From IMG/VR virus record IMGVR_UViG_3300031857_001352, positions 1 to 24,232 of that record: a DNA stretch of 24,232 nt. One strand, 5' to 3'. The notes under the pieces were generated by a model. That model saw only the letters and a program-made list of their open reading frames with translations. It ran no database searches and was not told where the DNA came from. Of this stretch, positions 4,773-20,854 are shown piece after piece; position 1 is the stretch's first letter; each line of letters begins with the position of its first letter. Source of the stretch: a virus. The position numbers and the translations under genes are program-made.

Positions 4773-7001
4773 ATGGCAGATTTACCAATAAGCGGATTAC
4801 CCTCAGCAGGGGCATTAGCAGGCACAGAGCCTATTCCAATAGTTCAGAGTGGTGCAACAAAGCAGACAACGGTTCAAGATATTGCAGACTTAGCAGGAAC
4901 ACCGCTAACAGCAGACGAATTAGATGCGATACAAGGCTCAAGTTTGCCGAGTTCGAGCAATGTATTTATTACAGATTCGGCACAGACCTTCACCAAAGAT
5001 GCAAACAACAATGTATTTTACAATGGGGTTACAGCGACATTAGGAACGGGGTGTGCTAAAAATACATTTTATCAAGGTTCGGCTACAATAGTTTTTGGGG
5101 ATGGTTGTACGAATAATATAGTTGAGCAAGAAAACAACGTAATAACATTAGGGGATAGTTGTTTGGCTAATAGATTTGGGATTGGTTGTGGTACATTAGT
5201 TTTTGGTGATGGGTGCGGTAATAATATAGTTGAGCAAGAATGTAATATAATAACATTAGGTGATAATTGTCAGGCTAATAGATTTGGGATTGGTTGTGGT
5301 ACATTAGTATTAGGTATTGGAAGTGCCCAAAATGTATTTGGAAATGCAATTGATAACTTAACATTAGGGGATAGTTGTGCAAATAATACATTTGAAAACA
5401 ATGTAAGAAATATAATTTTTGGCGATAATTTACGAAGAACATTAGTACGTTCAGGCGACTATGCAAGTTTAGATTTAACAGCAAGTCCAACATTTGATTT
5501 TCTTTATTCACTTGCTTATCCGAGTGAGATTTACTTAGGTTCAGATGGGCAACCATACCACCGCTATTATGATGGTGCTAATAATCAAGATGTAATTACA
5601 TTGTTAGTATCACCTTACACCGTTTCTTATATTGGAGGTGGAAGTGGTAGTGGCATTCCTAAAGCAACTGCAAGTGGCACAGATACATACACAGCAACAA
5701 TATCAGGAGTTGCCTCTTATACTGATGGAGATACTTATTTAATAAGGTTTACCAATGGAAATACAACGTCAGCAACATTAAATATTAATTCACTTGGTGC
5801 TAAGACATTATACAGAAACAATGATGGTGCTATAATAGGTGGTGATTTTTGGGATGGTGGAGAAATGTTGTGTGTTTACAATTCTACATTAAACGGATTT
5901 CAATGTATAGGCACTTCACCTAATAGTATATTTGCTTACGTTACTAATGCTGCTAGCGTAAGCATTACAAAAGGGCAAGTGGTTTATGCGTTTGGTGGCA
6001 CAGGGGATAGAATGACAGTTAAATTAGCTAACAATTCAACAGATGCAACATCTGCAAGAACAGTTGGAGTAGTGTTCTCAGCAAGTATAGGGGCAAATCA
6101 AAAAGGTATCATTATATTGCAAGGTTTAATTGATGGATTAAGTATATTGGGTTCACCATTTGTTGATGGTGATAGTGTTTATTTAGGTTCTACGAATGGC
6201 TCAATAACAAGGACAAAACAATATGCACCAAATCATTTAGTTTACATAGGCACAGTAACGACTGCAAGTGCAGGTTCTGCAGGTCGTATGTATGTAAAGA
6301 TTCAGAATGGTTATGAGATGGATGAACTGCACGATGTATCAGCTCAAACACCGGCAAACAAAGATGGATTGTTTTACAACACAACAACTTCATTATGGGA
6401 GTCAAGGCAAGTTGCTGCAACGGATATTAATGCCAATGTTAGCAATACTGAATTTGGGTATTTAGATGGTGTTACAGGTGCTATTCAAACACAATTAGAT
6501 GCAAAATTAGACTTAGTAAGGGCATCTAATTTAATTGACATTGCAACAGATGGTGCAGCAACAAGCGGAACATCTAATACTTATTCAACAGGCGGATTAA
6601 TAACACCAAGTCAGATATTGGCAGGGGATGCTATTGAAATATTTACACTTGTAAGAAAATCAGCAGCAAACGGAACAGTTACAATTAGGTTGTATGCAAA
6701 TACAACGAATGATTTAATAAGTGGTACACCAATATTGATAGGTGCATCAGCCGCCATAGCAGCAGCAACAAGACAAACCTATTTTACAAGGTGGTTAAGA
6801 ATAAAAGTTAAGGCGGGAACTGGTGCAGGTACGGAGGTTCAAAACACAGCAACAACAACGCAAACAGATTCTACAAACGCAACAACAGCACCAAGCACAC
6901 TTGCTATTGATTGGACAGTTAACCAATATTTAATTGTTGCAATTCAGAATAGTAGCGGTTCAGATTCATCAGTATCAACAATGTTAAAAGTAAGGAGGTA
7001 A
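4773..7001 (+). CDS. Tail fibre / receptor-binding protein with beta-helix-like repeats
   Basis: 742 residues. Residues 1-45 (PISGLPSAGALAGTEPIPIV and a QDIADLAGT motif) are typical of fibre N-termini that attach to the baseplate. Residues about 88-225 hold Gly/Asp/Cys/Asn-rich repeats with a core such as LGDSCLANRF or FGDGCTNNIV; two successive 36-residue copies are nearly identical. This fits a repeated beta-solenoid stalk. Then come a GYLDGVTGAIQTQLDAK segment (about 565-580), widespread in fibre stalks of these phages, and a Thr/Ala-rich C-terminal domain (about 590-742) without a recognised enzymatic motif. It is the largest structural gene here and probably the main host-range determinant. 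Confidence 0.8.
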   Translation: MADLPISGLPSAGALAGTEPIPIVQSGATKQTTVQDIADLAGTPLTADELDAIQGSSLPSSSNVFITDSAQTFTKDANNNVFYNGVTATLGTGCAKNTFYQGSATIVFGDGCTNNIVEQENNVITLGDSCLANRFGIGCGTLVFGDGCGNNIVEQECNIITLGDNCQANRFGIGCGTLVLGIGSAQNVFGNAIDNLTLGDSCANNTFENNVRNIIFGDNLRRTLVRSGDYASLDLTASPTFDFLYSLAYPSEIYLGSDGQPYHRYYDGANNQDVITLLVSPYTVSYIGGGSGSGIPKATASGTDTYTATISGVASYTDGDTYLIRFTNGNTTSATLNINSLGAKTLYRNNDGAIIGGDFWDGGEMLCVYNSTLNGFQCIGTSPNSIFAYVTNAASVSITKGQVVYAFGGTGDRMTVKLANNSTDATSARTVGVVFSASIGANQKGIIILQGLIDGLSILGSPFVDGDSVYLGSTNGSITRTKQYAPNHLVYIGTVTTASAGSAGRMYVKIQNGYEMDELHDVSAQTPANKDGLFYNTTTSLWESRQVAATDINANVSNTEFGYLDGVTGAIQTQLDAKLDLVRASNLIDIATDGAATSGTSNTYSTGGLITPSQILAGDAIEIFTLVRKSAANGTVTIRLYANTTNDLISGTPILIGASAAIAAATRQTYFTRWLRIKVKAGTGAGTEVQNTATTTQTDSTNATTAPSTLAIDWTVNQYLIVAIQNSSGSDSSVSTMLKVRR
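5112..5327 (+). repeat. Two tandem 108-bp direct repeats in the fibre gene
   Basis: The segment starting AATAATATAGTTGAGCAAG at 5112 recurs at 5220, a period of 108 bp or 36 codons. Both copies contain the identical stretches AATAATATAGTTGAGCAAGA and GCTAATAGATTTGGGATTGG. The high DNA identity, beyond what the protein needs, suggests recent duplication or homogenisation within the fibre stalk. Confidence 0.85.
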
Positions 7002-10712: not shown

Positions 10713-10832
10713 CGGCAAAGCATTGGCGATGTTGGGGATTAGAAAGTACAAAAGCTCAAATAAAAACAAATGATAGTAGAAAGCACAGAAGCTCAAATTA
10801 AGCACGAAAGCCCCAATATTGCCAATGCAGTG
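10552..10832 (+). mobile_element. Gene cassette 1 (281 bp)
   Basis: It runs from the G/TT cut point in site A to the one in site B. Its start GTTAGCGGTAGTTTT (10551-10565) is complementary to its end AAAATTACCGCTAAC (10699-10713) at 14 of 15 positions. In an integron cassette the two ends come together in the excised circle to form one attC, which predicts exactly this complementarity. Confidence 0.65.
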
Positions 10833-10838
10833 TTAGGT
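10707..10838 (+). repeat. attC-like recombination site B (132 bp)
   Basis: The boundaries are CGCTAAC (10707-10713) and GTTAGGT (10832-10838), the latter a perfect GTTRRRY core. Arms GCATTGGCGATGTTGGGG (10720-10737) and CCCCAATATTGCCAATGC (10811-10828) pair over 18 bp; the only imperfections are two G.T wobbles. The loop contains the ATG (10770) of the methyltransferase gene and shares GCACAGAAGCTCAA (10783-10796) with site C (11998-12011). Confidence 0.75.
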
Positions 10839-11921
10839 GCAGTTCCTGTTCACAAATTTCCTTATAACTGGAATTTAAAAGATGCAAACTTTACAAAGGA
10901 TAAAGGCAAAGTATTTAGTTGTTTTGCTTGTGGTGGTGGTTCAACAATGGGTTATAAATTGGCTGGATTTGATGTAATAGGACACAATGATATTGATAAG
11001 AAAATGATTGAAGTTTATAAAACAAATCATAATCCTAAATATTCATTTTTAGAAAGCATTACAACTTTTGCTAAAAGAAAAGATTTGCCAAAAGAACTTT
11101 ATGAACTTGATATTTTAGATGGTTCTCCACCTTGTAGTAGTTTTTCAATGGCTGGAAATAGAGAAAAAGACTGGGGCAAAGAAAAGGTGTTTAGAGAAGG
11201 ACAAGCCGAACAAGTTTTAGACACTTTATTCTTTGATTTTATTGATTTAGCAAAAGAATTACAACCCAAAGTAGTTGTGGCTGAAAACGTAAAAGGTTTG
11301 CTATTAGGAGAAGCGAAAGAATACGTTATTAAAATTTATAAAGAGTTTGACAAAGCTGGATATTATGTACAACACTTTTTACTTGATGCTTCAAAAATGG
11401 GAGTGCCACAACGTAGAGAAAGAGTTTTCTTTATTGCATTAAGAAAAGATATAGCACAACCATTTTTATATTATGCAGATATGTTTACAGAATTGCCAAA
11501 AATTGATATGCAATTTAACGAACCAATAATCACATTAAACGACATCAAAGACAATAGTGCTAATGATGAAAAATGCGAAATGACTGATGTTAAAAGAAAC
11601 ATCTGGAACAATAGAATTAATGGAGATAGTGATTTTAGCTGCACATTAGGGAGAATTGAAAACAGACCAAATTCAATGTTTAACAATAACTATTTATATG
11701 GAAATAAACCATTAAATACTATTACATCAAAAAAGAATGATGTGCTTTTTGATGAACCAAGACATTGTAATTTTAACGAAAACACATCCGGGCAAACATA
11801 CCCAAAAGATTATAACTTTTTAAATATGCCTTATTTATATTTATTAGGAATGAGTGTGCCACCTGTAATGACTGCACAAATATCAACTAAAATATATGAA
11901 CAATGGCTGTCGAAGTTGTAG
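10770..11921 (+). CDS. Cassette 2: DNA cytosine-5 methyltransferase
   Basis: 383 residues; it transfers a methyl group from SAM to C5 of cytosine. Motif I FSCFACGGGSTMGYKLAGF (about 49-67), motif IV GSPPCSSFSMAG with catalytic Cys122, motif VI ENV (172-174), motif VIII QRRERVFFIA (214-223), then a variable target-recognition region (about 235-350) and a degenerate motif X (LYLLGMSVPPVMT). No restriction endonuclease gene is adjacent, so it is an orphan enzyme, likely to shield phage DNA from restriction. The first 21 residues (MIVESTEAQIKHESPNIANAV) are encoded by attC-like site B; the enzyme fold begins at about residue 45. No later ATG precedes motif I, so this start is needed or a GTG at 10830 is used. 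Confidence 0.9.
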   Translation: MIVESTEAQIKHESPNIANAVLGAVPVHKFPYNWNLKDANFTKDKGKVFSCFACGGGSTMGYKLAGFDVIGHNDIDKKMIEVYKTNHNPKYSFLESITTFAKRKDLPKELYELDILDGSPPCSSFSMAGNREKDWGKEKVFREGQAEQVLDTLFFDFIDLAKELQPKVVVAENVKGLLLGEAKEYVIKIYKEFDKAGYYVQHFLLDASKMGVPQRRERVFFIALRKDIAQPFLYYADMFTELPKIDMQFNEPIITLNDIKDNSANDEKCEMTDVKRNIWNNRINGDSDFSCTLGRIENRPNSMFNNNYLYGNKPLNTITSKKNDVLFDEPRHCNFNENTSGQTYPKDYNFLNMPYLYLLGMSVPPVMTAQISTKIYEQWLSKL

Positions 11922-12065
11922 ATGCGTCTTTTGGAATTGCACCTAACGTATGGTGCTTGGCGAAGGTTGGGATTAGAATTAAAAAACTTTAAATTATGCA
12001 CAGAAGCTCAATAGAATTACAGAACTTGATTGAACCACAGAAGCCCAGCTTTTGCCAAGCACGTG
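10833..12065 (+). mobile_element. Gene cassette 2 (1233 bp)
   Basis: It runs between the G/TT points of sites B and C and holds the first methyltransferase. Its start GTTAGGTGCAGTTCC (10832-10846) and its end GGAATTGCACCTAAC (11933-11947) are complementary at 14 of 15 positions; the exception is a G.T wobble. Confidence 0.7.
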
Positions 12066-12071
12066 TTACAG
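11941..12071 (+). repeat. attC-like recombination site C (131 bp)
   Basis: The boundaries are ACCTAAC (11941-11947), a perfect RYYYAAC core, and GTTACAG (12065-12071). Arms GTGCTTGGCGAAGGTTGGG (11953-11971) and CCCAGCTTTTGCCAAGCAC (12044-12062) pair over 19 bp; all three deviations are G.T wobbles. The loop holds the ATG (11996) of the second methyltransferase gene. Confidence 0.75.
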
Positions 12072-13372
12072 GCAGTACGGGTTTAAATGTACTATCTCTT
12101 TTCGATGGTATGTCTTGTGGTCAATTGGCTTTGCAAAGAGCTGGTATTAAAGTAAACAAATACTATGCAAGTGAAATAGACAAACACGCCATAAAGGTAA
12201 CAATGGCAAACTTTCCTAATACAATTCAATTAGGGGATGTAACAAAAGTATTTGCAAAGGACTTGGATAAAATAGATTTGGTTATTGGTGGCAGTCCGTG
12301 CCAGGGATTCAGCTTTGCTGGTAAAGGATTAAACTTTGAAGACCCACGAAGTATGCTATTTTTTGAATTTGTAAGATTGGTAAATGAATGCAACCCAAAA
12401 TACTTTTTACTTGAAAATGTGAAAATGAAAAAAGAACACGAATTGGTTATAAGCCAGTACATGAAGGTAGCACCAATTGAAATAAATAGTGCTTTACTAT
12501 CTGCTCAAAATAGAGTTAGATTATACTGGACAAATATAAATCAAGTGCCGTGGGGTTTATTTGGCGATATGATTACAGATATACCACAGCCAAAGGATAA
12601 AAAAATATTGCTTAAAGATATACTTGAAAGTGATGTGCCGGATAAGTTTTATTTAAGTGATAAAATGCTAAAGTATTTTGAAACTCGTTCAGCAAACTTT
12701 AATGGTGGCAAAGTGAATGTAAGAAACGAAGAAGGTAAAGCGACTGCAATTTTGGCGAGCTCAGCAAGTTGTGATATTAGTGACAACTTTATAAAAGTAG
12801 ATACTACTTTGAAAGTATCAAATAACCAAGACAAGGCAAATTGCTTTACTGCTGGGGGAAATAGTGGCGGACTGCATTCTGATATGACTTTAATAGTTGC
12901 AAGTAGAGGCAGAAACCCACAAAATCAAAAAAGTAGAGATGTAGGATTAAATACTGAACAAATGCTTGAGCCAAGATTTGACGGCAAAACAAATTGCCTT
13001 ACAAGTGTTCAAAAGGATAATTTAGTTTTATCAATACCCGAAGCAACTAAAAAAGGATATGTAGAAATTGAAGCAGGGCAATGTTTTGATTTTGAAAACC
13101 CAAATAGTGAAACTCGAAGAGGTCGTAAAATGGAAGTAAAATCAAATTGCTTAATGGCAAAAGAAACCGACTTTATGCAGTTTACAAATGAGGGCAAAAT
13201 AAGACGATTAACACCAACAGAATGCGAAAGGTTACAAACCGTACCCGATGGATATACAAATTATGTGAGTGATACACAACGATATAGAATGTTAGGAAAT
13301 GGTTGGACAGTAGATGTCATTGCCTATATATTCTCATATATGCAAAAACTTTCAAATTATGCAGGATGCTAG
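11996..13372 (+). CDS. Cassette 3: DNA cytosine-5 methyltransferase with expanded recognition region
   Basis: 458 residues. Motif I LNVLSLFDGMSCGQLAL (30-46), motif II around SEIDKHA, motif IV GGSPCQGFSFAG with catalytic Cys102, motif VI LLENVKM (138-144), motif VIII QNRVRLYW (171-178), and motifs IX-X RRLTPTECERLQ and YRMLGNGWTVDVIA near the C-terminus. Between VIII and IX lies about 220 residues with recurring K(A/T/S)NC(L/F)-like units (about 277, 325 and 385), suggesting repeated target-recognition elements. It is unlike cassette 2's enzyme in motif IV (PCQ against PPCSS), so the two probably methylate different sites. Residues 1-23 are encoded by attC-like site C; cassette sequence begins near residue 24, directly before motif I. 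The TAG (13370-13372) abuts the cassette's right half site. Confidence 0.93.
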   Translation: MHRSSIELQNLIEPQKPSFCQARVTGSTGLNVLSLFDGMSCGQLALQRAGIKVNKYYASEIDKHAIKVTMANFPNTIQLGDVTKVFAKDLDKIDLVIGGSPCQGFSFAGKGLNFEDPRSMLFFEFVRLVNECNPKYFLLENVKMKKEHELVISQYMKVAPIEINSALLSAQNRVRLYWTNINQVPWGLFGDMITDIPQPKDKKILLKDILESDVPDKFYLSDKMLKYFETRSANFNGGKVNVRNEEGKATAILASSASCDISDNFIKVDTTLKVSNNQDKANCFTAGGNSGGLHSDMTLIVASRGRNPQNQKSRDVGLNTEQMLEPRFDGKTNCLTSVQKDNLVLSIPEATKKGYVEIEAGQCFDFENPNSETRRGRKMEVKSNCLMAKETDFMQFTNEGKIRRLTPTECERLQTVPDGYTNYVSDTQRYRMLGNGWTVDVIAYIFSYMQKLSNYAGC

Positions 13373-13421: not shown

Positions 13422-13613
13422 ATGAAACCAATTGAATTACAACTAACTTACAAAAAGGTGTTAAGTTTCACCGAAACTCAAAAAAAGGCACTCAAAAAAC
13501 TTGAGGATTATAATGTTAATGTTAACGAGTTTATCCGTAGTGCAATACGAGAAAAACTGGCAAGGGAATGGAAAGGAATAAAAGAAAGAAAGGACAATAA
13601 GTGTCCATTTTAA
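13422..13613 (+). CDS. Ribbon-helix-helix-like DNA-binding protein
   Basis: 63 residues. The order is a strand (ELQLTYKKVLSF), helix A (TETQKKALKKLEDYN), a turn (VNVNE) and helix B (FIRSAIREKLAREWKG), the arrangement of RHH regulators of the Arc/CopG type. It lies directly downstream of the cassette array and before the DnaA-like gene, so it may regulate the replication genes. The charged tail ends in NKCPF. The family is inferred from predicted secondary structure and the FIRSAIREKL pattern. Confidence 0.6.
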   Translation: MKPIELQLTYKKVLSFTETQKKALKKLEDYNVNVNEFIRSAIREKLAREWKGIKERKDNKCPF

Positions 13614-13638: not shown

Positions 13639-14211
13639 ATGCAAAAAGCAGGAAGAAAACTAAAACAAAAACACGAGTACAACATTATTGACAGCGAGGT
13701 GAGGCAATACATAGACTACCTCTGCGACACGATAGGAACTGATTTTGATACGATATTCGCAAACAAGAGCAGACTTCGCCACATAGTGATGAAAAGAGAA
13801 GTGGTGGGCTATTTAGCTTATCTTAAATACAAACAAATCATTTCCTTAGATTTATTTGGTGAATTGATAGGAAAAGACCACTCCACGATTATTTATTATG
13901 GCAAAATGTATGAGAAGGCAATGCAGGGATATTTGCCTGATAACAAAGCGTTGATAGATGCCTTAGCGGTTGCCTTTGAGCATAACTTTGAAGGAAGTAA
14001 AGTAAAATATGGCTACAAGGGATTTATTATACATAAAACATTACTGAGCGAATACTATATCACAACAGATTCAGGGCAAAGATTGCCATTTATTACCAGT
14101 CAATGTGCCGATGCAGAAACATTCATTAATGGAATAGTGTATTGGAAGGAACGATTGGAAAAGTCCACATTTGACAACGAGCCATTTGAAAGTATAGAGG
14201 CAAATGTTTAG
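13639..14211 (+). CDS. DnaA domain IV-like (DnaA C-terminal) protein
   Basis: 190 residues. Residues about 52-90 match the DnaA DNA-binding domain: an REVVGYLAYLKYKQIISLDL helix pair leading into FGELIGKDHSTIIYYGKMYE. GKDHSTIIYY (78-87) is a close match to the DnaA signature GRDHSTVxHA, which contacts the DnaA box. There is no AAA+ ATPase domain, so it is the DNA-reading part alone, with an unrelated 90-residue C-terminus. Such proteins occur in Bacteroidota phages and prophages. It could bind the phage origin, recruit the host initiator or block host initiation. Start ATG 13639 follows an A-rich leader. Confidence 0.75.
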   Translation: MQKAGRKLKQKHEYNIIDSEVRQYIDYLCDTIGTDFDTIFANKSRLRHIVMKREVVGYLAYLKYKQIISLDLFGELIGKDHSTIIYYGKMYEKAMQGYLPDNKALIDALAVAFEHNFEGSKVKYGYKGFIIHKTLLSEYYITTDSGQRLPFITSQCADAETFINGIVYWKERLEKSTFDNEPFESIEANV

Positions 14212-15398: not shown

Positions 15399-15650
15399 AT
15401 GGAAAACTTAACAGAAATGCAAACAACAATCAGATTACCATTCCAAGTGAATGAAGAAGCCTTTTACATTAAGGATAATCAAATTAGAAAAGGTATTATT
15501 TGGCGTGTAGATGCCGAGATAACCGAAACATCTCATAGATTTATGCTGTGGTTTAAAAAAGAGGATAAAACAAATGATTTGATTAATTTAGAATTGGTTT
15601 TTACCACCAAAGAACAAGCTATTGACTACGTTACATCAACAATTAAATAA
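15399..15650 (+). CDS. Hypothetical 83-residue protein
   Basis: Beta-rich core (FQVNEEAFYIKDNQIRKGII, RFMLWFKKED) and a C-terminal AIDYVTSTI helix. The layout recalls small SH3-like phage proteins that read 'ampl-x-Y-xx-G-x-I-xx-I'. No function can be assigned. Its leader CAATCAAAATGG and tight spacing to the DUF3127 gene (8 bases) place it in the same transcript. Confidence 0.55.
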   Translation: MENLTEMQTTIRLPFQVNEEAFYIKDNQIRKGIIWRVDAEITETSHRFMLWFKKEDKTNDLINLELVFTTKEQAIDYVTSTIK

Positions 15651-16957: not shown

Positions 16958-17451
16958 TGAAAGCAACATTTTTCAGCACCGTTAAGGATGGCAAGTTGCA
17001 GAAAAACACAACTCAAAATATCCTCCAAGAATTAAAACACTTGGAGGGTAAAAGAGTAGTTATCACAATTGAAAAGCAAAAGAGTTCAAGAAGCCTTGAG
17101 CAGAATAAACTCTATTGGGTTTACATCACGATTTTAGCCAAAGAATTAGGCCATAACAAGGATGAAATGCACGAGTTGGTAAAATATAAGTTTCTTAAAT
17201 TAAAACGCTTTATATCGCTTGTAAATGGAAAGTCTGTAATCTTAGCTTTGGAGGATGGAATCTATGTTGATGTAAATACCGGCGAAATTTACGACATTGA
17301 AAAAGTTGAACCTTATGAGAAGATTGGATCAACAACCACCTTAACAAAATCAGAATTTATTTATTTTGTAGATAACCTAATTACTTGGGCCAAAGACTTT
17401 CTTGGAATTACTTTGCCATCACCAGAAGAACAACAAACAATTAATTATTAA
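16957..17451 (+). CDS. NinB-like recombination protein
   Basis: 164 residues. The core RSLEQNKLYWVYITILAKEL (residues about 45-64) is the NinB / phage recombination pattern 'RS-x-x-QN-x-x-YW', followed by a MHELVKYKFLKLK helix. The C-terminal STTTLTKSEFIYFVDNLITW resembles the tail of these proteins (STT-L...F...I). NinB binds ssDNA and works in the lambda Orf recombination pathway. The neighbours Gp157-like, ERF and RusA support a recombination role. Confidence 0.7.
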   Translation: MKATFFSTVKDGKLQKNTTQNILQELKHLEGKRVVITIEKQKSSRSLEQNKLYWVYITILAKELGHNKDEMHELVKYKFLKLKRFISLVNGKSVILALEDGIYVDVNTGEIYDIEKVEPYEKIGSTTTLTKSEFIYFVDNLITWAKDFLGITLPSPEEQQTINY

Positions 17452-17453
17452 TT

Positions 17454-17744
17454 ATGGAAACCTACCCACAAAAATTTATTGAGTATCATGCCAAATATCC
17501 AAAGGTTTATGCTTTTTACAAAGAAGTAATTGCTCAGCTAATCAATCGAGGATTTAAAAAATATTCAAGCGATGGAGTTCTGCACATTGTGAGGTTCACA
17601 AAGCACGATGAAATCAAAAAGGATGGATTCAAGGTCAACAACAACTACACTCCTTACTATGCGAGGTTATACGAGGCTGAACATCCTGAGTTAAAGGGGT
17701 TTTTTGCGATGAGAAAAACAAAAGTAATTAAGTTTGCAGATTAA
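17454..17744 (+). CDS. Conserved phage protein, unknown function
   Basis: 96 residues. The pattern F-x-x-YHAKYPKVYAFYKEV, then LINRGFKKYSSDGVLHIVRF, FKVNNNYTPYYARLYE and a FFAMRKTKV end is recognisable as a conserved hypothetical protein of many phages ('NP-x-VY...G-x-x-x-YS...IR...K-INNN-x-x-x-YAR'). No function is known. It ends the transcript before a short non-coding gap (17745-17861). Confidence 0.7.
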   Translation: METYPQKFIEYHAKYPKVYAFYKEVIAQLINRGFKKYSSDGVLHIVRFTKHDEIKKDGFKVNNNYTPYYARLYEAEHPELKGFFAMRKTKVIKFAD

Positions 17745-17764
17745 AAAAATAATCCGTAATCTTG
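17733..17764 (+). promoter_or_regulatory. Probable promoter before the DUF3820 gene
   Basis: TTTG at 17733-17736, a 20-bp spacer, then TAATCTTG at 17757-17764 (one mismatch to TAnnTTTG). It is followed by a ~90-base leader before the ATG at 17862. Confidence 0.45.
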
Positions 17765-17778
17765 CAAAATGGTTTTGT

Positions 17779-18148: not shown

Positions 18149-18823
18149 ATGGCTGAGAACAAAAAATCATTTATTTTGTATGCTGACCTAATAAAAAGCA
18201 TTGACCATTTGACCAATGAAGAAAAAGGAATTTTATTTAATCATTTGTTGGAATACGTTAATGACAAAAACCCAATTTTAGAAGATAGGTTGATTTTGAC
18301 CGCTTGGAAACCTATTGAACAACAACTTAAAAGGGATTTAAAAGATTGGGAGATAACAATAGGAAAGCGTAGTGAAGCAGGAAAAGCAAGTGCAGAAGCT
18401 AAAAAGTTGGCTAAACTAATTCAACAAACTTCAACAAAATCAACAAGTGTTGAAAGTGTTCAACACACCTCAACAAAATCAACTGATAATGTTAATGTTA
18501 ATGTTAATGTTAATGTAATAAATAATAAAGAGGTTCTTTTTAATAGATTTTGGGAATTGTATTCAAAAAAAATAGGAAGGAAGGATTGTTTAAATAAATT
18601 TATGAAGTTAAGCATTAACGATATGGAAAAAATAATTCAATCCGTTCCAAAATATGTTTTATCAACTCCCGATGAAAAATTTAGAAAAAACCCTGAAACT
18701 TATTTGAATGGCAGACATTGGGAAGATGAAATTGAATTAACATCTACCCCTGCACCAAAAAAACAAGGTTTTGAATATCCACCATTACCATCACCACCAG
18801 TAGACTTCACTTTAGGAAATTAG
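18149..18823 (+). CDS. DUF6291-type replication initiator-like protein
   Basis: 224 residues. The N-terminal domain (residues 1-75: KKSFILYADLIKSIDHLTNE, GILFNHLLEYVNDKNP, KPIEQQLKRDLKDWE) is the DUF6291-type start found in many phages. A basic linker, a Ser/Thr/Gln-rich repeat (TSTKST twice) and a (Asn-Val)5 stretch follow (about 91-123). The C-terminal part (RFWELYSKKIGRKDCLNKF, IIQSVPKYVLS, KNPETYLNGRHWEDE) resembles replisome-organiser and helicase-loader tails. By position, directly before the primase-helicase, it is the probable origin-binding initiator. The middle of the gene contains iteron-like DNA repeats (see 18420-18517), as in lambda O. Confidence 0.65.
   Translation: MAENKKSFILYADLIKSIDHLTNEEKGILFNHLLEYVNDKNPILEDRLILTAWKPIEQQLKRDLKDWEITIGKRSEAGKASAEAKKLAKLIQQTSTKSTSVESVQHTSTKSTDNVNVNVNVNVINNKEVLFNRFWELYSKKIGRKDCLNKFMKLSINDMEKIIQSVPKYVLSTPDEKFRKNPETYLNGRHWEDEIELTSTPAPKKQGFEYPPLPSPPVDFTLGN
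18420..18517 (+). other. Iteron-like cluster, putative replication origin inside the gene
   Basis: TCAACAAA occurs at 18421, 18431 and 18470; the last two extend to identical TCAACAAAATCAAC (18431-18444 and 18470-18483). Between them is an 8-bp inverted repeat GTGTTGAA (18447-18454) / TTCAACAC (18459-18466) containing the same TTGA/TCAA core in opposite orientation. Directly after come four AATGTT units plus AATGTA (18488-18517) and a very AT-rich stretch. Repeats plus an AT-rich region within an initiator gene is the plan of the lambda-type origin. Function is inferred. Confidence 0.45.
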
Positions 18824-18826
18824 ACT

Positions 18827-20854
18827 ATGATAAAAGAAGCAAAAGAATATTTTAAATTAGGACTTTCTGTTATTCCGATAGGTGATAATAAGATTCCACA
18901 AGGCAGTTGGAAGAAAAATCAAGCTGAATTGATTGAGCCAACATTTACAAGTTGCAAGGGCATTGGATTAGTTTGTGGTGAAGTTAGCGGATATTTGCAA
19001 TGTATTGACATTGATTCCAAATACGATTTAACTGGGAAACTATTTGATAACTACAAAAAATTAATTTATGAAACTGACAAAAACCTTTTAAAAAAGTTAG
19101 TTGTTCAATCAACTCCAAGCGGAGGTTATCATTTTATTTTTAGATGCAAAGATATTGGAGGAAATTCCAAACTTGCGAATAGACATTGCACCGAACAAGA
19201 AAAAAAAGAAAACCCAAAGGATAAAGTAAGGGTACTTTTGGAAACAAGAGAAACTGGCGGATATTTTATGATTGCTCCGAGTGATGGCTATAAAATAATT
19301 TACAAGTCATTGGATAAAATTTCCGAAATCACTCCATCAGAAAGACAAACATTGTTTTTATGTGCAAGGTTATTAAATGAGGTATTTGAAACTCCTTCAC
19401 TAAAGAAAACTGACATAAAAGTTTTATCTGAGAATGTAAGTCCATTTGATGAATGGAATAACAGAGGTGATATAATTGGACTTTTGGAAAATGAAGGATG
19501 GAAGATTACTCAAAGCAGAGGATCAAAGAATTTATTTTTAAGACCGGGAGGAACAGGAAAATGGAGTGCGGATTGGGATGATTCAAAGAGATTGTTTTAT
19601 GTGTTTACTTCATCAAGTGAATTTGAACAAGGTAAAGCATACAATGCAAGTCAAGTATTGGCAAAATTAAAATTTAGAGATGATTTTTCAGAATGTGCAA
19701 AGTGGTTGCTGAAGGAAGGATTTGGAAATTTTACTCCCGAAAAGAAAGATTACAAAAAAGAATTTAAATCAGAACCTAAGTTTTTAGATTCCATAACTAT
19801 TGACATTGAAGATGATAATTTTGATTTTCTTGCTAAAAAAGATGATTGCGATAAGTATATTCAACAAAAAATAGATGATACTTTTAAGATGGGAGATAAG
19901 ACTGGCTTTGAAGATTTAGATGAGTATTGGAGGTTTAAAGATGAAAGTTTGGTTATGATTTTAGGACACGACAATGCAGGGAAATCTGTTGTTACTTGGT
20001 TTCTTGCAGTATTGGATTGCTATTTTAATGATAAAAGTTATATTATTTTTGCAGGAGAAAACAAAGTTGGAATGCTAAAGTATAAATTAATGGAGTTTTA
20101 TTTATCCAAGCCAATTAAAAAAATGGGTAAAATGGAAAGAGAGGAAGCTATGAAATGGGTTGAAGAACATTTTGCAATTATCAGAAATGATATTCCATTT
20201 ACTTACAAAGATATGTTAACCATAGGCAAAAAACTTTTAACTAAAAAGAATTATAGCCGATTTATTATTGAACCTTACAACGTACTTTCAAAAGATACTG
20301 GCAATGAACATCAATACGATTACAAAGCTATGTTGGATATGAAATTGTTTATTACTCAAACAGGGCTTGGAATTACTTTGAATGTTCACGCTGCCACCGA
20401 AGCACTAAGGCGAACTTATCCAAAAGGCCATCCAAAGGAAGGTTACTCAATGCCACCAAACAAAGCAGATGCCGAAGGAGGAGGAAAGTTTCCAAACAAA
20501 GCAGATGATTTTATGGTTATTCATAGAATGGCAGACCATCCCGATTTTTGGATGTGGACAGAAATTCACGTTCAAAAAATCAAAGAGAATGAAACTGGAG
20601 GTAAACGAACTTTTAAAGATAGTCCATATTTGTTGAAGATGCAGATTGATGGAGCAGGATTTGAAAACCAAATGGGTATTAATCCGATGCGAGATAGGAG
20701 AAAAGGAACTGCACCGCAAGTAATTTTTAAAGATGAACTACCACCAACCCCAATAAAGCCAAACGGAGCATTTGACACCCCAATAAACGATAAAGACAAT
20801 TGGAATTTTACAATGGAGAAAAACAAAATAGAGATTGCAGACGATGCCTTCTAA
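18827..20854 (+). CDS. Primase-polymerase / RecA-fold helicase fusion
   Basis: 675 residues. The N-terminal ~190 residues look like a Prim-Pol (BT4734 / bifunctional primase-polymerase) domain: LGLSVIPIGDNKIPQGSW, CIDIDSKYD with acidic residues Asp61 and Asp63, STPSGGYHFIF with His102 and ETRETGGYFMIAPS (139-152). A middle domain follows (about 205-300). The C-terminal part is a RecA/DnaB-type ATPase with Walker A GHDNAGKS (380-387) and a hydrophobic strand ending in Glu (FIIEPYN) at the Walker B place. It would make primers and unwind DNA at the phage fork. Start ATG 18827 is 3 bases after the initiator-like gene's stop. The tail (after about 640) is Pro-rich and disordered. Confidence 0.82.
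   Translation: MIKEAKEYFKLGLSVIPIGDNKIPQGSWKKNQAELIEPTFTSCKGIGLVCGEVSGYLQCIDIDSKYDLTGKLFDNYKKLIYETDKNLLKKLVVQSTPSGGYHFIFRCKDIGGNSKLANRHCTEQEKKENPKDKVRVLLETRETGGYFMIAPSDGYKIIYKSLDKISEITPSERQTLFLCARLLNEVFETPSLKKTDIKVLSENVSPFDEWNNRGDIIGLLENEGWKITQSRGSKNLFLRPGGTGKWSADWDDSKRLFYVFTSSSEFEQGKAYNASQVLAKLKFRDDFSECAKWLLKEGFGNFTPEKKDYKKEFKSEPKFLDSITIDIEDDNFDFLAKKDDCDKYIQQKIDDTFKMGDKTGFEDLDEYWRFKDESLVMILGHDNAGKSVVTWFLAVLDCYFNDKSYIIFAGENKVGMLKYKLMEFYLSKPIKKMGKMEREEAMKWVEEHFAIIRNDIPFTYKDMLTIGKKLLTKKNYSRFIIEPYNVLSKDTGNEHQYDYKAMLDMKLFITQTGLGITLNVHAATEALRRTYPKGHPKEGYSMPPNKADAEGGGKFPNKADDFMVIHRMADHPDFWMWTEIHVQKIKENETGGKRTFKDSPYLLKMQIDGAGFENQMGINPMRDRRKGTAPQVIFKDELPPTPIKPNGAFDTPINDKDNWNFTMEKNKIEIADDAF

Follow-up and report, generated by a model that had tools for sequence, protein, structure and literature searches.

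Replisome organizers of phages of Gram-positive bacteria, such as G38P of SPP1 and the lactococcal Rep proteins, have their origin within or beside the organizer gene. In the DnaA-trio (basal unwinding system) of bacterial oriC, the opened element has a three-base rhythm and adjoins double-strand boxes. The lambda ori lies in the middle of the initiator gene O and consists of an initiator-binding iteron array followed by an A+T-rich tract, according to PMC7466680. A second source describes the lambda iterons as inverted repeats bound by O dimers, and the helix-phased direct repeats of iteron plasmids as adjoining an A+T-rich region (PMC5043065). An origin inside the initiator gene is therefore a known arrangement.

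We analysed a phage contig of 24232 bp from IMG/VR, which is the whole window; it is a fragment, because the ORFs at both of its ends run off. One of its genes, a member of the DUF6291 family and the proposed replication initiator (18149-18823, plus strand, 224 aa), contains an array of short boxes and a hexamer tract at 18421-18526. We consider it very likely, judging from the sequence patterns described below, that this stretch is a self-encoded replication origin, in which the initiator would read its own iterons and the adjoining tract would open. As in lambda O/ori, iteron-like repeats and an A+T-rich tract lie inside an initiator-like gene, and this proposal of the preliminary description is supported. 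Unlike the lambda iterons, the DUF6291 boxes are about 6 bp long and recur every 9-10 bp with one inverted copy; they come in many specificities, which are tied to some 15 residues of the protein. The adjoining tract is built of repeated hexamers, and Pfam detects no similarity between the DUF6291 protein and lambda O. The boxes are in helical phase like the iterons of plasmids of the RK2, P1 and F type, but the array lies inside the initiator frame, its units are much shorter and the protein is unrelated by Pfam. The likeness to the DnaA-trio is the three-base rhythm only, the DUF6291 tract being purine-N-A/T by codon phase. A PMC search with DUF6291 and origin terms, judged at the level of search results, returned no paper on the family or on such a code. 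The box-to-segment code and the hexamer tract would be new if true, while the plan itself is known.

The DUF6291 gene and its neighbourhood

The window protein matches DUF6291 (PF19808, E 2.2e-18, residues 7-84) with 66.6 bits against a curated cut-off of 27.2 and thus belongs to the family, for which Pfam records no function. Weaker PHROGs matches are to replication initiation and primosomal families, and an NCBIfam search assigned no family. The Pfam matches of the protein up to E 0.1 include neither the lambda O family nor a plasmid Rep family, and no DnaA-like domain was found among its Pfam matches. The next gene (18827-20854, plus strand) encodes a Prim-Pol primase-helicase (PF09250, 1.2e-09; phrog_19930, DNA polymerase/primase, 1.2e-66), as expected from the earlier claim of a primase-helicase directly downstream. 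In ten scanned relatives, the next gene matches the DnaB_C helicase domain (PF03796) in five, with the match in L053 below the Pfam cut-off, and has a Toprim domain in two; L006 has both, and no match was obtained in four.

Elsewhere in the window, the gene at 13639-14211 has a weak match to the DnaA C-terminal helix-turn-helix (PF08299, 1.3e-05, 25.5 bits, below the curated cut-off of 31.5), and genes in Harreka_1 and in Cellulophaga phage phi19:3 also carry the annotation 'DnaA protein'. A second short TAATGT repeat (2.5 copies, 13511-13525) is found in the ORF 13422-13613, upstream of this DnaA-like gene. Judged by eye from their motifs, the adjoining ORFs 10770-11921 and 11996-13372 look like cytosine-5 DNA methyltransferases. 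The ORF 4773-7001 contains 54/108-bp tandem repeats at 5084-5378, and our guess is that it encodes a repetitive tail protein.

Cumulative GC skew had been proposed as a check on the position of the origin. In the window it rises throughout and is uninformative, because the genes lie on one strand. The skew of the complete relative Harreka_1, sampled every 2.5 kb, declines from its maximum at 15488 to a local minimum near 30 kb, beyond which it increases; the element of this phage is located at about 30.8-30.9 kb. This low near the element is confounded and was left out of the evidence, because it coincides with a switch in gene orientation at 29.27-29.59 kb.

Predicted structure of the DUF6291 protein

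The AlphaFold model of residues 1-94 (pLDDT 92.4) contains helices at residues 12-18, 23-37 and 47-93. Since residues 47-93 are predicted to form one long helix, the proposed DNA-recognition segment inside it (residues 69-85, 18353-18403, plus strand) would stand out from the small helical N-terminal domain (residues 1-68, 18149-18352, plus strand). Model confidence is low (pLDDT below 50) in the linker at residues 95-123, which connects two predicted helical domains. The C-terminal one (residues 127-204, 18527-18760, plus strand; helices at 121-195 in model m2363262cefca) is swapped freely among relatives, with 17 C-terminal families among 109 representatives.

Neither the whole model nor its N-terminal domain has a Foldseek match in PDB at E<=0.001, VIA-align gave nothing usable (best Z 4.9 with rmsd 3.5 over 74 aligned residues, and 4.3 with rmsd 5.2 over 70), and a PDB sequence search with alignment A4 returned only ribosome-recycling factor (E 0.14). 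The resemblance of the DUF6291-domain fold to replisome organizers comes from Foldseek matches to BFVD models named replisome organizer or DnaD, which are weak (E 0.005 to 0.1, TMq 0.61 to 0.75); the BFVD models of similar fold also include proteins named DUF6291. In Vibrio phage 1.091.O (L182), the C-terminal domain of the window protein is found behind a DUF4373 domain, with a DNA helicase gene adjoining; its linker has copies of TGTCA/TGACA by eye and no tract.

Boxes and tract in the window

TCAACA-type boxes recur about every 10 bp at 18421-18484 within the DUF6291 gene, six of them direct and one inverted; the gene scores 90/90 on a six-box template. On the plus strand, TCAACA is read at 18421-18426 (box 1), 18431-18436 (box 2, 10 bp after box 1), 18440-18445 (box 3, 9 bp after box 2), 18460-18465 (box 4, 39 bp after box 1, also found as part of a direct repeat) and 18470-18475 (box 5). 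The inverted box lies on the minus strand (18448-18453, where the plus strand reads TGTTGA) and, like boxes 1 and 2, is also supported by motif matches. A partial sixth box (TCAACT, 18479-18484, plus strand), identified from the sequence, adjoins the tract. Copies of TCAACAAAATCAAC are present at 18431-18444 and 18470-18483, and a 25-nt direct repeat has copies starting at 18420 and 18459, 39 nt apart and 92% identical.

The longer motif TTCAACA matches within this cluster at 18420, 18430, 18448 (minus strand) and 18459. Over the whole window it is not in excess (11 matches against 8.1 expected), and only its clustering is exceptional: four matches in 65 bp were reached by none of 1000 first-order Markov sequences of window length, and three by 5 of them. 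The window gene has 21 pairs of repeated 7-mers before the tract compared with 3.5 in synonymous-codon shuffles, none of 400 of which had as many. Copies of the TCAACA core are read in two different frames, and one lies on the other strand, which makes the core a motif of the DNA and not the echo of one peptide.

The tract follows directly (18485-18526, plus strand). It consists of the purine-N-A/T codons GAT AAT (GTT AAT)4 GTA ATA AAT AAT and is the proposed unwinding element; TRF detects it as (TAATGT)5 at 18487-18516 with 100% match. The direct repeats, the inverted repeat and the microsatellite previously described inside this gene are thus present in every detail and far beyond chance. 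The translation contains TSTKST twice and (NV)5 once. The hexamer units are in frame, as had been noted, and their copy number varies freely between relatives.

Relatives of the window gene

A scan of viral contigs with the window protein gave 327 relatives, the best 80 of which were used; further scans contributed the best 80 of 548, 7 of 7 in genomes, 2, 1, 25 and the best 80 of 362, with L068 and L046 as single-query scans adding only 2 and 1 loci. After removal of duplicates, the first set comprised 127 genes and the full set 189, of which 179 have a recognised tract. The other ten are L011-L014, which lack a tract, the incomplete L080, and L043, L151, L164, L173 and L259, whose tract-like peptides the rule missed. 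The 113 representatives differ from each other by more than 15% over residues 1-88. The synonymous-shuffle test covers 118 of the 127 genes of the first set, as a tract start could not be defined in the other 9. A false tract start was assigned to L110, and this gene was retained in those of the 179- and 113-type sets whose filters it passed. The automatic table of box classes mislabels some rows (e.g. L036, L130, L181 and L110); it was used for the mutual-information table and not for the distance test. The relatives are not independent, and the use of representatives and within-class checks reduces the effect of kinship without removing it.

Few Bacteroidota genomes encode DUF6291: 3 of 395 do, and one of these was the search centre, known beforehand to have the domain. 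The exact 27-base tract pattern was identified in 12 viral contigs, four with an origin-type tract (L085, L087, L088 and L091) and eight with unrelated leader repeats. The latter (L084, L086, L089, L090, L092, L093, L094 and L095) carry tandem AACATT hexamers just before or at ORF starts; many of these ORFs are small structural-looking genes, and the repeats are unrelated to the origin tract. In L040 (3001-3420) and in L091 near its end, an origin-type tract lies near the end of the gene, followed by a short tail and no C-terminal domain. In the gene of L110 at about 2001, the boxes and tract are replaced, after the DUF6291 domain, by a sequence that by eye resembles a GIY-YIG-type nuclease.

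Phased boxes across the family

The 118 genes have on average 12.7 repeat pairs in the stretch of 24 codons that precedes the tract; synonymous shuffles have 2.4, and the remainder of the same ORFs 0.9. The shuffles were exceeded in 98 of the 118 genes at p<=0.05 and in 80 at p<=0.01; the remaining 20, phi19:3 included, are no better than their shuffles at p<=0.05. In 77 genes the commonest 7-mer has three or more copies, and in 73 of these its copies are spread over different frames or strands.

Direct repeats of six bases in the 113 representatives are offset by 9-10, 20, 29-31, 39-41 and 48-51 bp, with almost none between; offset 10 was found 391 times (43.7 in shuffles) and offset 20 188 times (15.0). 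Pairs in helical phase make up 1019 of 1058 in the dominant S81-A82 type (56 representatives) and 883 of 965 in the other types (57 representatives). The corresponding values in shuffled sequences are 187.0 of 216.8 and 210.0 of 270.0, the shuffles keeping the phase because the peptides themselves repeat. Offsets that are not multiples of three number 497 of 1058 and 473 of 965, respectively, against 80.5 and 68.9 in shuffles. The boxes are thus phased and under selection at the DNA level.

The sequence of the box varies from relative to relative (CAACA, CAACG, TCGCA, GAAGCA, AACCC, TTAGCA, ATAACA, ATAGCA, GAACA and more). Boxes of the TCAACA, GAAGCA, AACCC, AAAGCA and GAACA types occupy nearly the same places, at about -60, -50, -41, -34 (inverted), -21 and -11 from the tract; types with KRW residues have other spacings.

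A universal fixed box geometry was considered and rejected: of 179 genes, 80 conform to the TCAACA-class template at p<=0.05, and only the 10-bp phasing is general. At the same threshold, the fixed six-box template fits 44 of 50 genes inside the CAAC/TAACA-consensus set and 36 of 129 outside it. Because it fits few genes outside this set, the exact geometry differs between classes.

Codon choice and stability of the tract

In the 113 representatives, 94.8% of the first 12 tract codons are of the form purine-N-A/T, compared with 48.6% in the rest of the ORF. The preference extends to individual amino acids: serine is AGT in 93% of cases in the tract and 22% elsewhere, asparagine AAT in 97% and 65%, aspartate GAT in 99% and 70%, and threonine ACT in 71% and 33%. 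Of the 43 representatives with serine in the tract, 37 use AGT for every one. The tract is also among the least stable duplexes of its surroundings (median, lowest 1.8% of 36-bp windows within 1.4 kb). At the 189 loci, 171 runs of at least four hexamers lie inside DUF6291 genes (121 kb) and 8 elsewhere (732 kb, both strands). The tract therefore combines codon choice at the DNA level with low stability. No tract was found in the gut phage L294 (GGRPKK type).

Box sequence follows a short protein segment

We compared distances between box spectra with distances between residue segments in the 113 representatives (999 permutations). Box spectra correlate with residues 69-85 (r=0.676; partial r given residues 1-68 0.676, p=0.001, largest permutation value 0.145), whereas residues 1-68 show no link (r=-0.029; partial 0.000, p=0.49). 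In 98 of the 113 representatives the analysed DNA starts beyond residue 80, and in these residues 69-80 alone still give r=0.588 (p=0.001). In 109 of the 113 representatives, with 17 C-terminal families, the C-terminal domain is not linked to the boxes (r=0.020, p=0.11), and neither is the family it belongs to (-0.025). The strongest single-residue links are at positions 82, 81, 83, 77 and 74. Among 892 pairs that are at least 75% identical over residues 1-68, r reaches 0.829.

In the S81-A82 type, AACG boxes occur with Gln73 in 15 of 15 cases and AACA boxes with another residue in 39 of 39 (54 of 56 representatives could be scored). Exceptions for CAACG are L011-L014, which by our reading have Gly73 and lie outside the set because they lack a linker tract, and L070 (GGI type), with Lys73. 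A tree-based test of Gln73 against CAACG with independent pairs had low power, with only one supported pair.

Part of the correlation is linkage, because the segment codons and the boxes are neighbours that share inheritance. A working link beyond neighbourhood is suggested by the sharp onset near residues 69-73, by a relocated copy of the element (below) and by the match in distant phages. Among phages that were not part of the statistics, two agree: Flavobacterium phage elemoC has GNLKK with TCGCA, and human-gut phage L293 has SGEAR with GAACA, like L073. The box-tracking residues show no helix-face rhythm (100-degree moment, p=0.65; highest values at 80-90 and 180 degrees), so that a major-groove helix as in bZIP proteins is no more than a likeness here.

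The preliminary description had suggested that the DNA may be selected for binding more than for protein, and that the repeats should be compared in relatives whose linker diverges. Selection beyond the protein is borne out by boxes and tract codons that exceed synonymous expectation and, in one lineage, by the relocated copy. In diverged linkers, the phasing, the adjoining tract and the match to residues 69-85 persist.

Relocated elements, cassette exchange and alternative explanations

Four of the eight hexamer runs outside DUF6291 genes belong to L011-L014, whose proteins lack linker boxes and tract. These are one lineage and not four events (95% mean column identity over 473 aligned columns). 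Their TCAACG, GCAACG and TTAACG boxes lie some 330 bp upstream of the gene, and in L011 the sequence after them is AACTGTTATATGTTATTGTTATT. The relocated element is covered by no ORF of at least 60 aa, although a TTG-started frame of 50 aa does cover it (frame data from L011 only). Since the element lies outside the gene, boxes and hexamer tract persist where coding for a linker is not needed.

An upstream location is also a possible operator place, and the boxes could instead be sites at which DUF6291 binds for autoregulation of the early operon, for partition or for packaging, and not for the start of replication. Our tests do not distinguish whether binding serves replication or control. 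On the other hand, the element is mid-gene in nearly all relatives, primase/helicase genes adjoin it in the window and in six of the ten scanned relatives, and an operator does not need an A+T-rich tract of low stability after its boxes. We therefore regard such another role of the boxes as improbable, and a self-encoded origin as the better explanation.

Linker and tract could also have arisen as a low-complexity protein linker grown by replication slippage, with the DNA repeats as a by-product. The in-frame hexamer with its free copy number would be expected from slippage, and phi19:3 (L083) keeps the peptide rhythm of the tract (TDTV) with different codons, its boxes being no better than synonymous shuffles (p=0.37). 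This phage comes partway to the case that had been named as refuting an origin, in which the peptide pattern is kept without the DNA repeats. Slippage is a very unlikely explanation, as it does not explain why tract serines are so strongly biased to AGT, why box offsets are largely not multiples of three, why an untranslated-looking copy exists or why the boxes track residues 69-85. An origin embedded in the initiator gene is consistent with these observations.

Boxes and protein also change together in near-identical phages. Identity per 60 nt between L254 and L191 is 85-96% in the first 240 nt, drops to 41-51% across the boxes and the recognition segment, and recovers to 65-83% from the tract onwards. 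L027 is 89% (17300-17769) and 96% (18653-20808) identical to the window in the flanks and differs in the N-terminal half, where (G)GCAAAGCA repeats of its own, with four CAAAGCA, are accompanied by A+T-rich DNA, and where no Pfam match exceeds its cut-off. In both cases the initiator half and the boxes have changed together. That the tract is mainly a recombination joint for exchanging N- and C-terminal halves is the least credible explanation: C-terminal families are indeed shuffled against N-terminal halves and the L254/L191 breakpoints bracket the box region, but such exchanges are equally expected from an origin working as one module, with which a joint is not exclusive, and a joint leaves the helical phasing, the match between boxes and protein, the low stability and the relocated copy unexplained.

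A candidate origin and a possible code

Three steps are inferred from sequence patterns: the boxes are bound by the DUF6291 protein, the tract melts, and the element is where replication begins. The proposed origin would lie in frame inside the initiator gene, between the parts encoding the N-terminal DNA-binding and the C-terminal domains. Copies of DUF6291 would use the end of the long alpha-helix, at about residues 69-85, to bind the boxes as iterons on one face of the DNA. The bound array would strain the adjoining weak (GTTAAT)n tract until it opens, and the C-terminal domain may then help to load the helicase/primase encoded next door.

A further proposal, to which we give somewhat better than even chances, is that DUF6291 phages have a natural protein-to-DNA origin code. 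A segment of some 15 residues, located at the end of the long helix, would set the sequence of an iteron of 5-6 bp, and within the S81-A82 type residue 73 (Gln or not) would set its last base. Segment and iterons would travel as a cassette of about 110 bp between otherwise near-identical phages, so that the type of origin could change in one recombination event. Under such a code, the tract may be kept as purine-N-A/T codons where translated and as GTTATT where untranslated because it would be opened in a three-base register.

The DUF6291 phage proteins become a testable set of candidate initiators with matched sites. About ten box types, each with a short protein segment, provide data on the evolution of replicon specificity and incompatibility. 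The stretch also shows protein-coding DNA in which codon choice is subject to a DNA function, and it offers a way of predicting the origins of Bacteroidota phages directly from sequence.
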